Part shown: piece by piece, positions 16,115 through 22,912 of the stretch
Position numbering within the stretch: position 1 is the first letter of the stretch
How the letters are laid out: every line of letters begins with the position of its first letter
DNA from: Rhodovulum tesquicola
GTDB taxonomy: Bacteria; Pseudomonadota; Alphaproteobacteria; Rhodobacterales; Rhodobacteraceae
Reading direction: 5' to 3'
DNA: 64,000 bases
NCBI RefSeq assembly: GCF_024128855.1
Contig: NZ_JAMYDV010000017.1
Coordinates: forward strand, 1-64,000
Position numbers and translations under genes: made by a program
The notes under the pieces: generated by a model
Told to the model about the DNA's origin: nothing
Seen by the model: the letters and a program-made list of their open reading frames with translations, nothing else
Databases searched by the model: none

Positions 16115-16723
16115 CTAGCCCATCGCGGCGCGCGACAGCGCCAGTTGCCCGCCCGTCTCGCGCAATTGCCAGGCGGCGGGGGGCGCGTTGCGGGCGCGGC
16201 GGCGTTCCAGGCGCCATTCGCTGCGGCCGGGGGCATGGCGCGGCGCCATGTGCCAGCGCGTCTCGACGCCCGCCGCCCCGCCCGGCCCCGGCGTCAGGAT
16301 CAGCCCCAGCGGCAGGCCATGCCCGGTCGCCGCCCCCGCCTCGGCCGCCAGGTGCAGCCGGCGCACCGGGGTCAGCGGCGGCGGTTCGGGCAGCTCGGCC
16401 ACCACCAGCGGCACCACGCCCGCGCGCAGCGCCTCTTCCATCGACCACAGCAGATCCTCGGCCCGTTTCGGCGTCACCAGGATCAGCCGTCCCGGCGCGA
16501 TCCGTTCGGCCAGCGTGTCGGGATACAGCCGCCCCGGCGCCCAGGCGGGCTGGATCCAGATCACCGGCCCGCTGGCCGCGCCCGCCAGCACCAGCGCCAG
16601 CATGTGCCGCGCCGGGCCGCACAGCTCATGCGCCCGCGCCAGCGGCAGCGCGATCTCGCCCAGCGCGGTCAGCGCCGGGGGCGCGCGATGGGGCGTGCGG
16701 GTCAGGGGCGGGTGCAGACTCAT
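16115..16723 (-). CDS. imuA: ImuA-like SOS protein
   Basis: This 202-residue protein resembles ImuA, the RecA-like partner of the ImuB-DnaE2 translesion mutasome. Recognisable segments are [53 protein letters not shown], and [14 protein letters not shown]. The classic Walker A is not evident. The start [11 protein letters not shown] is set by the promoter: the LexA box with its -10 hexamer ends 17 bp upstream, so upstream in-frame ATGs fall inside the promoter. No imuB is adjacent; the only other cassette relic is the DnaE2 OB-fold at 22.0 kb. It could be an independent SOS gene or a survivor of cassette breakdown. Confidence 0.75.
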
Positions 16724-16739: not shown

Positions 16740-16774
16740 GTTCGCTTTATGTTCTCAAGCTTTCGCGCCATCAA
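16740..16774 (-). promoter_or_regulatory. LexA box and promoter of the imuA-like gene
   Basis: GAAC-ATAAAGC-GAAC on the minus strand (16740-16754) is an exact alphaproteobacterial LexA site (GAAC-N7-GAAC). TTGATG (16769-16774) and CATAAA (16746-16751), spaced by 17 bp, form a promoter whose -10 lies inside the box, so LexA would block RNA polymerase directly. The predicted leader is about 17 nt long with no Shine-Dalgarno sequence. Confidence 0.85.
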
Positions 16775-16878: not shown

Positions 16879-17922
16879 ATGAGGAAAGTCGCACTGGGCC
16901 GGACCGGTCTGCGGGTGTCCTGCCTGTGCCTGGGCAGCATGACCTGGGGCAGCCAGAACACCCAGGAAGAGGGCCATGCCCAGATCGACCTGGCGCTCGA
17001 CCGGGGCGTGAACTTCATCGACACCGCGGAAATGTATCCCGTGGCCCCGGTGCGCGAGGAAACCGTCGGCCGGACCGAGCGGATCATCGGCAACTGGCTG
17101 CAGACCTCCGGCCGCCGCCATGACGTGATCCTGGCCACCAAGATCACCGGCGAGGGCCAGCGCGCGGTGCGCGAGGGCGCGCCGATCTCGCCCGCAACCA
17201 TCCGCGAGGCGGTCGAAGGCTCGCTCCGGCGGCTGCGCACCGACCATATCGACCTCTACCAGTTCCACTGGCCCAATCGCGGCTCCTATCATTTCCGCAA
17301 GTCCTGGACCTATGACCCCTCGGGGCAGGACCGCGACGCGACGCTGGCCGACATGCAGAACTGCCTGGAAACGCTGGCCGACCTGGTGCAGGAGGGCAAG
17401 ATCCGCCATTTCGGCCTGTCGAACGAAACCGCCTGGGGCATCTGCCAGTGGCTGGGGCTGGCCGACCGCCACGGCCTGCCGAGGGCGCAGACGATCCAGA
17501 ACGAATATTCGCTGCTCTGCCGCCTTTACGACACCGATCTCGCCGAACTGGGCGTGAACGAGGAGCTGACGCTGCTGGCCTATACGCCGCTGGCCGCGGG
17601 GCTTCTGACCGGGAAATACGCGGGCGATGTCACCCCCGAGGGCACGCGCCGCGCGCGCCAGTCCGACCTGAACGGCCGCATCACCCCCCGGGTCTGGGAG
17701 GCGGTCTCGGCCTATCTGGGCATCGCCAAGGCGCATGGGCTGGACCCGGTCCAGATGGCCATCGCCTTCGTCGCCCAGCGGCCCTTTCCGGTGATCCCGA
17801 TCCTGGGCGCGACCTCGACCGCGCAGCTGGACACCGCGCTGGGCGCGGCCGATCTGACCCTGTCGGACGCGGTGCTGGCCGATATCGCCGCGGCCCACAA
17901 GGTCCACCCGATGCCGTTCTGA
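16879..17922 (+). CDS. Aldo/keto reductase (Tas-like)
   Basis: This 347-residue NADPH-dependent oxidoreductase has the AKR barrel with the catalytic tetrad regions: GVNFIDTAEMYP (Asp/Tyr), ILATKITG (Lys) and LYQFHWPNRG (His). The cofactor end, PVIPILGATSTAQLDTAL, is present. The length, the MTWGSQNTQEEGHAQ segment and the HWPNR loop match the Tas/YajO subgroup, whose physiological substrates are unclear. AGGGGAG precedes the ATG. It is divergent from the imuA-like gene and may share the inverted repeat between them. Confidence 0.92.
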   Translation: MRKVALGRTGLRVSCLCLGSMTWGSQNTQEEGHAQIDLALDRGVNFIDTAEMYPVAPVREETVGRTERIIGNWLQTSGRRHDVILATKITGEGQRAVREGAPISPATIREAVEGSLRRLRTDHIDLYQFHWPNRGSYHFRKSWTYDPSGQDRDATLADMQNCLETLADLVQEGKIRHFGLSNETAWGICQWLGLADRHGLPRAQTIQNEYSLLCRLYDTDLAELGVNEELTLLAYTPLAAGLLTGKYAGDVTPEGTRRARQSDLNGRITPRVWEAVSAYLGIAKAHGLDPVQMAIAFVAQRPFPVIPILGATSTAQLDTALGAADLTLSDAVLADIAAAHKVHPMPF

Positions 17923-21998: not shown

Positions 21999-22373
21999 TC
22001 AGGGCTGGTCGGCCGCCCGGCAGATCTCGTGGCGCAGCAACTCGTCCAGCATGTGCGAGATGTCCTCGATCTCTTCGGCGATCACATGGGTCACGCCCGC
22101 CTCTCGCTGCACCCGCCCGGCGACCCGCAACAGCCGCCCCGCGATCACCGCGCGGCGGAAGCGTTCGAACACCCTGGCCCACACGACCACGTTGGCCACG
22201 CCGGTCTCGTCCTCCAGCGTGACGAAGATCACCCCCCTGGCGGTGCCCGGCCGCTGGCGCACCAGCACCAGCCCCGCCACGCAGACCCGCGCGCCCGCGG
22301 GCGGCAGGTCCAGCATCGCATGCGGCAGGCAGGCGGGCGGTTTCGGCCAGTCGGGGGGGCGCGGATCGGGCAT
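21999..22373 (-). CDS. Orphan OB-fold domain of error-prone polymerase DnaE2
   Basis: This 124-residue protein corresponds to the C-terminal OB-fold of DnaE2 alone. [20 protein letters not shown] and [20 protein letters not shown] are diagnostic, followed by [20 protein letters not shown]. The PHP, polymerase and helix-hairpin-helix parts (about 900 residues) are missing. The ATG is only 2 bp from the LexA box and about 7 bp after the -10 hexamer, so the gene has its own SOS promoter and a leaderless message. It is either a remnant left by an internal deletion or a repurposed single-stranded-DNA-binding module. Residues 1-25 are proline-rich and do not look like DnaE2. Confidence 0.8.
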
Positions 22374-22375
22374 GA

Positions 22376-22408
22376 GAACAAGTGTAGAACAAATTTCGCG
22401 TCACGCAA
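22376..22408 (-). promoter_or_regulatory. LexA box enclosing the -10 of the DnaE2 OB-fold gene
   Basis: On the minus strand GTTC-TACACTT-GTTC (22376-22390) is a perfect LexA box. TTGCGT (22403-22408) and TACACT (22381-22386) lie 16 bp apart as -35 and -10, with the -10 inside the box. The transcription start would coincide with the ATG. The arrangement mirrors that of the imuA-like gene. Confidence 0.85.
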
Positions 22409-22443
22409 CCGCCGCGCCGCGCCCGGCCCCGCCGAAACCCGCC

Positions 22444-22911
<468 letters not shown>

Positions 22912-22912
<1 letters not shown>

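Follow-up and report, generated by a model that had tools for sequence, protein, structure and literature searches.

The described system closest to the one reported here is the ImuA-ImuB-DnaE2 (ImuC) mutasome, which is encoded as one cassette. DNA polymerases encoded in two pieces are also known; for example, the cyanobacterial DnaE, which is joined by a split intein, and the archaeal PolB, which is encoded in two genes. Intein-split C-family polymerases are mentioned in excerpts of PMC6511836. Within the mutasome, stand-alone ImuB-C with an inactive PolY has been called split ImuB (excerpts of PMC6511836 and PMC12926913). Several DnaE2 sequences without an OB domain were noted by Timinskas in 2013 (PMC3919608), and the excerpts of that paper do not mention an OB domain surviving as a separate gene. 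A 2026 survey by members of the Timinskas group describes 11 complex types and, in its excerpts, does not mention a free OB subunit (PMC12926913); the phrase 'OB domain' is absent from the main text in the form available. No description of the missing DnaE2 OB domain living on as a separate gene was found in open-licence full texts, and one may exist elsewhere.

The window analysed here is a stretch of 64,000 nucleotides from Rhodovulum tesquicola (contig NZ_JAMYDV010000017.1; the genome is G000 in the sets below), and it contains a free-standing gene for a DnaE2-type OB domain. With a probability of roughly 0.85, this free OB is the detached C-terminal domain of a naturally split DnaE2 (ImuC), an SOS-induced translesion polymerase that would be assembled in trans; at the level of sequence, this reading rests on homology, the cut site, intact motifs, co-occurrence, joint loss, purifying selection and conserved boxes. 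As in the described mutasome, there are a homologous polymerase, ImuB-type and ImuA-like genes and LexA-type boxes, whereas DnaE2 lies in two genes and the four mutasome genes are scattered over three contigs instead of forming one cassette. As in split ImuB, going by the same excerpts, a mutasome protein is divided into separately encoded domains, but the protein divided here is DnaE2. As in the cyanobacterial DnaE and the archaeal PolB, a polymerase is encoded in two pieces; unlike in those, no intein was recognised in either half (by eye, and with the halves compared with Pfam and NCBIfam), and only one domain, the OB, is detached, with a LexA-type promoter of its own. New would be a DnaE2 mutasome with its polymerase split in two, while OB-less DnaE2s as such were known.

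The free OB gene and its promoter

The gene runs from its ATG over positions 21999..22373 on the minus strand and encodes 124 aa. The sequence-only reading had described a free-standing 124-residue DnaE2 OB domain, and this is borne out by profile matches: the ORF matches the Pfam OB-fold family PF01336 (E=7.7e-12) and aligns to positions 948-1040 of the 1047-position NF004225 (NCBIfam error-prone polymerase DnaE2; E=4.4e-31), which is the last tenth of that model. The identity to the tail of the fused DnaE2 in the same genome is 66%. The barrel strands lie between residues 29 and 104, a WPKPP motif lies at residues 9-13, and the protein ends in RAADQP. In general form, WP[RK]PP opens the free OB protein and is absent from the 12 fused DnaE2 linkers compared. 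The short tail RA[AG]DQP (window 21999-22019) is conserved in many free OBs and missing in others.

Free-OB loci were collected by a one-genome-per-species scan, which gave 80 loci, mostly from Rhodobacteraceae genera or unclassified alphaproteobacteria. Four fused loci (L109, L110, L112 and L113) and one unclear locus (L107) were omitted, leaving 75 free-OB loci, of which L104 is cut by a contig end; a second set holds 40 further free-OB loci from the G-genome set. Alignment and fold prediction used the window and 47 of the 68 loci that have an exact box. From these, AlphaFold2 predicted five strands in an OB-like order (best pLDDT 82.3, five models 48.1-82.3), so that the predicted model has the OB-fold structure expected of a DnaE2-type polymerase. 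The nearest solved structures in the fold search include the OB domains of Stn1, RPA and class II tRNA synthetases; DnaE chains were absent among the best 50 matches listed in each of two fold searches, an absence that carries no weight, and a sequence-profile search against solved structures gave 0 matches. Membership of the SSB family (PF00436) was rejected at 13.6 bits against a gathering score of 26, with 1 of 48 relatives matching at E <= 0.001.

A perfect LexA-type box of the form GTTC-N7-GTTC, GTTCTACACTTGTTC, lies at 22376..22390 on the minus strand, with the ATG 2 nt downstream. Inside it, TACACT (22381-22386, minus strand) would be the -10 element, and TTGCGT (22403..22408, minus strand), separated from it by a 16-nt spacer, is the probable -35 element; of 54 aligned relatives, 42 have a TTG 16-18 nt ahead of the -10. 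No site was detected in the region with a generic scan for E. coli-type promoters. The exact pattern occurs 116 times in the genome, against 58 for a reversed control, so a single box is weak evidence and conservation must carry the claim. An exact box is found upstream in 68 of the 75 free-OB loci, and in the second set 38/40 boxes are exact and 2/40 have one mismatch. As judged from these alignments, such conservation rules out chance occurrence, and the earlier proposal of an SOS-type promoter within a perfect LexA site holds. The conserved GTTC-N7-GTTC box at the promoter is that expected of a LexA (SOS) regulon gene, with LexA binding and induction by DNA damage as the predicted behaviour.

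The ATG lies exactly 2 nt past the box in 54 of the 68 boxed loci. Among these 54, T stands at -35 in 54 and G at -33 in 51, with a TATNTT-like -10 within the box. This promoter geometry would put the first transcribed base on the A of the ATG or beside it, and the gene would therefore be leaderless, in agreement with the architecture first suggested for the window. The exact box is missing at 7/75 loci, one of them cut by a contig end. Four loci from Rhodobacter or Rhodobacteraceae MAGs (L045, L074, L083 and L086) have a free OB without a LexA box, and three of them have TCTTCTAGACTTC before the ATG. An exact GAAC-N7-GAAC is also found at 17545-17559, inside an aldo/keto reductase-like ORF, and is probably there by chance.

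The divergent neighbour of the OB gene, at 22589..22912 on the plus strand, was identified by eye as a 2Fe-2S ferredoxin gene and serves as a synteny marker. It adjoins the OB gene divergently in 73 of the 75 free-OB loci, and the OB locus therefore looks old and vertically inherited; the ferredoxin itself is probably not part of the split-polymerase system. The gap between the two genes holds a terminator-like hairpin at 22496-22513 (plus strand), and part of the gap, at about 22410-22513, recurs as short matches at many sites in these genomes.

Within the genus, the OB gene has a median dN/dS of 0.29 (NG86), with all 28/28 pairs at or below 0.43, and by this measure the free OB is under purifying selection. 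The selected function that the first reading had put forward is thereby upheld. Its other suggestion was a relic: a deletion would have fused the promoter to the polymerase tail, and the product would now be neutral. The genome does carry a full imuA-imuB-dnaE2 cassette elsewhere, on contig 12, which was one of the two signs of a relic named beforehand, and the OB gene has been deleted in a relative (G007). Against this, the gene is old and found across the family, with frame, promoter and gene position intact over many genera, and the dN/dS of all 28 pairs is that given above. The neutral decay of the frame that went with the suggestion does not take place, and for this reason the relic reading fails; it is scarcely credible.

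The OB-less core and its probable ImuA and ImuB partners

The genome containing the window has three C-family polymerases, namely DnaE1, a full DnaE2 and an OB-less DnaE2-like protein. The last of these, which co-occurs with the OB gene and had been missed by the sequence-only reading, is a core of 962 aa with PHP, palm, fingers and HhH, recognised by homology and Pfam (G000 contig 2, 54957-57842, minus strand). Its neighbours, named by eye, are a lytic transglycosylase-like gene on one side and ftsW/murG-like genes on the other. Pfam finds the polymerase, finger and HhH domains and no OB in the core, and finds the OB in the fused protein. The core ends ...HPVALIRDRLTPGVAP, whereas the fused DnaE2 runs on through a linker into the OB. 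The conserved part of the cores ends HP-x-ALLR-xx-LTP and the free OB starts WPRPP-xx-LP; set against the fused DnaE2, the two halves jointly cover the protein up to its tail, with the cut between HhH and OB. The OB is not on the same chain as PHP-Pol-HhH, as it is a stand-alone ORF and the core lies on a different contig.

The motifs PDID-DF, K-D-L and GRGSAANS are intact in 42/42 cores, that of the window's genome included, and these cores are predicted to be catalytically complete. The median dN/dS of the core is 0.23 (28 genus pairs). In 40/42 loci the matched core start is preceded, at a distance of 25 to 94 nt, by a GAAC-N7-GAAC-like element that has no more than one mismatch; 7 of these are exact and 33 have one mismatch, including the one in the window's genome, and in the remaining 2 the match does not begin at the protein start.

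The full imuA-imuB-dnaE2 cassette, recognised by homology, lies on contig 12 of the same genome (L114; 3467-14562), encodes a DnaE2 of 1144 aa and is flanked by transposase-like and TraG/VirD4-like genes (by eye). Among plasmids, 761 records have DnaE2 OB matches at E <= 1e-15; together with the flanking genes, this suggests mobility for the fused form and a chromosomal home for the split form. No free OB was found among the 25 plasmid matches listed, of which 20 bear the annotation error-prone DNA polymerase, 4 are in records without annotation and 1 has no feature at the matched site.

An imuA-like gene lies about 5 kb from the OB gene in the same window (16115..16723, minus strand; 202 aa). 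Its positions 16223-16690 match the ImuA of the cassette (E=1.1e-20), and a perfect LexA-type box, GAACATAAAGCGAAC, lies at 16740..16754 on the minus strand, 16 nt before its ATG. The protein scores 41.8 bits against NF033429 ImuA (E=1e-10), under the cut-off of 150, and has no Pfam match. It is likely, from these comparisons, that the gene encodes the ImuA of a dispersed mutasome, and an ImuA match is present in 8/8 split genomes of the genus. Three genomes without the split polymerase (G007, G011 and G012) also have ImuA matches of the weak kind seen here. Contig 4 carries a divergent imuB-type gene of 547 aa, and an exact box precedes its ATG by 13 nt. Its product shares 52% identity with the ImuB of the cassette across residues 161-490 and has an IMS domain (E=5.6e-15). 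Homologues of both mutasome partners are thus present, with the ImuA-like protein below the NCBIfam cut-off. The OB, core, imuB-type and imuA-like genes each have their own LexA-type box, that of the core with one mismatch.

Co-occurrence and joint loss of the two halves

Among 219 genomes of the window's family, each with a separate genus code, the free OB is found in 95, the core in 95, both in 91 and neither in 120, counted by hand from tables of the best matches listed. The criterion for a core was a match with an identity of at least about 62% that ended before the OB. The association has a Fisher p=4e-51 on these hand-compiled sets, kinship uncorrected. Long frames such as those of G076 (1706 aa), G035 (1409), G204 (1261), G084 (1178) and G184 (1144) were tallied as cores without being read individually, and were accepted as OB-less because the OB match table shows no attached OB there. 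Short frames of 60-67% identity in G199 C29, G125, G024 C2 and G180 were excluded from the free-OB tally, which includes, unread, three rows whose match contains a stop (G182, G063 and G079); G190 and G246 each have a second OB match outside those listed and read. In a closer set of 61 relatives, screened for free OB and OB-less core, 15/15 genomes with an assigned free OB also have the OB-less core, that of G028 being spread over two frames. Judging from these counts, the split enzyme appears to be kept in dozens of related genera.

Four genomes have an OB without a counted core (G087, G097, G181 and G247) and four have a core without an OB (G080, G100, G184 and G201). Partial core matches are present in G097 and G181 and two DnaE2-like matches in G247, and the four assemblies with a core alone are in pieces, with about 100-490 contigs. 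G087, which is 100% complete in 7 contigs, has an intact free OB and seems genuinely to have lost only the core. This genome bears on the explanation that the OB is an independent, SOS-induced small ssDNA-binding protein, derived from DnaE2 and working without the core, for example in gap coating or in modulating RecA or Pol III. The gene's own promoter with a LexA box and the nearness of its fold to the OB domains of RPA, Stn1 and tRNA synthetases also speak for such a protein. However, the core accompanies the OB in 91/95 genomes, the two are jointly absent in 8/16 genomes of the genus, and the OB gene encodes precisely the domain that is missing from the core. This explanation is thus improbable: the first reading came near the mark with an SOS-induced single-strand-binding protein, but the co-occurrence is much better explained by a polymerase subunit.

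A second DnaE2-like match at E <= 1e-120 was found in 2 of the 95 split-core genomes (G000 and G071) among the best matches listed, and the split form therefore seems to replace the fused one. The same count weighs on the idea that the free OB regulates another polymerase, or is a spare OB for it, and acts as a competitor or decoy on the fused DnaE2 of contig 12 or on DnaE1. The window's own genome, with a fused and a split DnaE2, would suit this idea, but with only those two genomes showing a second match the OB normally occurs without a fused DnaE2, and DnaE1 is present in 16/16 genomes of the genus irrespective of the OB. A spare OB is therefore very unlikely.

The genus set of 16 genomes divides into 8 with both genes and 8 with neither, OB and core being always alike. 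Here 'neither' refers to the two split genes; G004 retains, at its core locus, pieces of the core that contain stops and lacks a free OB, and G011 carries a piece of DnaE2 with 48% identity where a contig ends. OB and core were entered as a single vector, identical across the 16 genomes, which gives six changes on the DnaE1 tree of the genus, 4 of them forced by well-supported (starred) branches. The sign test gives p=0.125 from the 4 independent pairs on starred branches, too small a number for the association within the genus to reach significance. In the sister genome G007, whose flanks are 93-96% identical, both unlinked loci have been emptied by deletion. At the OB locus, the part that corresponds to positions 22016-22513 is gone and 47 bp stand in its place, so that the OB gene is reduced to its final 17 bp and the promoter is lost; at the core locus, 3.06 kb are replaced by 553 bp and about 70 bp of the 5' end of the core are left.

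Outside the family, in a search of 288 class-level genomes, established free OBs were restricted to the window's family (G000 and G227). Ten short frames from outside the family were also seen: those in G506, G501, G291 and G411 were rejected as broken, fragmentary or contig-edge copies, and the other six begin, by their coordinates, near a contig end (G295 C68, G379, G440, G457 C150, G496 and G497).

Possible working and history of the split polymerase

The split DnaE2 would work as follows. On DNA damage, LexA would leave the boxes, and the OB mRNA would begin at its own ATG. The OB protein would dock on the core, perhaps via its conserved N-terminal WP[RK]PP motif, and would give it the grip on the single-stranded template that the fused DnaE2 has in cis. 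Together with ImuA and ImuB, core and OB would form an SOS-induced error-prone polymerase assembled in trans, with ImuB recruiting the core half. The modelled contacts of ImuB with the DnaE2 of M. tuberculosis, in excerpts of PMC12926913, are with PHP and HhH. Both domains belong to the core half of the split DnaE2.

The split might also act as a control device, with the OB as an induced, limiting mutasome switch and thus a two-key safety on mutagenesis. The core would stand at a low level, weakly bound to the template, and a burst of OB after damage would make the productive mutagenic polymerase. A low standing level of the core is suggested by its box, which usually has one mismatch (33/42), while that of the OB is exact and its gene apparently leaderless. 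Such a switch is a doubtful proposition.

The natural split of DnaE2 itself, if correctly read, offers an answer to the question of why some DnaE2s 'lack' an OB domain. Many genera whose annotation would list a truncated polymerase and an orphan OB protein would turn out to have a translesion system that is complete. It would also be a natural experiment, in which the ssDNA-binding domain of a C-family polymerase is a protein of its own, open to removal, titration or exchange, and the role of the OB domain in such a polymerase could be tested in vivo via deletion of a gene of less than 400 bp.

In a core tree of 58 rows, the 42 split cores form one group with no fused row inside, at a FastTree support of 0.15. 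A second core tree, with four rows added and 14 of 62 dropped as near-copies, has a clade of 33 split cores with an SH-aLRT of 100, which G117 joins (87), and G214 is placed with the fused G032 (96). A tree of the OB gene, which is too short, is poorly resolved and places G016 among the fused rows. In G214, core and OB lie on one strand with a single opposite-strand gene between them (assigned by eye), and there is an exact box before the OB and another before the core. Its OB ends AMHPRDQAKRLFPSRDFH and retains SRDFH, which is named the C-terminal signature of DnaE2 by Timinskas and colleagues (excerpts of PMC3919608). The arrangement in G214 is either the ancestral one or a second split. The OB of G117 retains a worn tail, and no box was found near its OB or core. 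G164 and G186, which have AT-rich flanks, have exact boxes ahead of both OB and core. In G019, a fused DnaE2 has its own box and imuB lies on a different contig, which fits a cassette that would have dispersed first and split later.

The core tails of G177, G154, G161, G201 and G100 have an HPR(N/A/S)xRxF ending, reminiscent of HPR(D/E)xxxxLFPSRDFH in the tail of the fused DnaE2, such as might remain after the OB was cut out of the interior.
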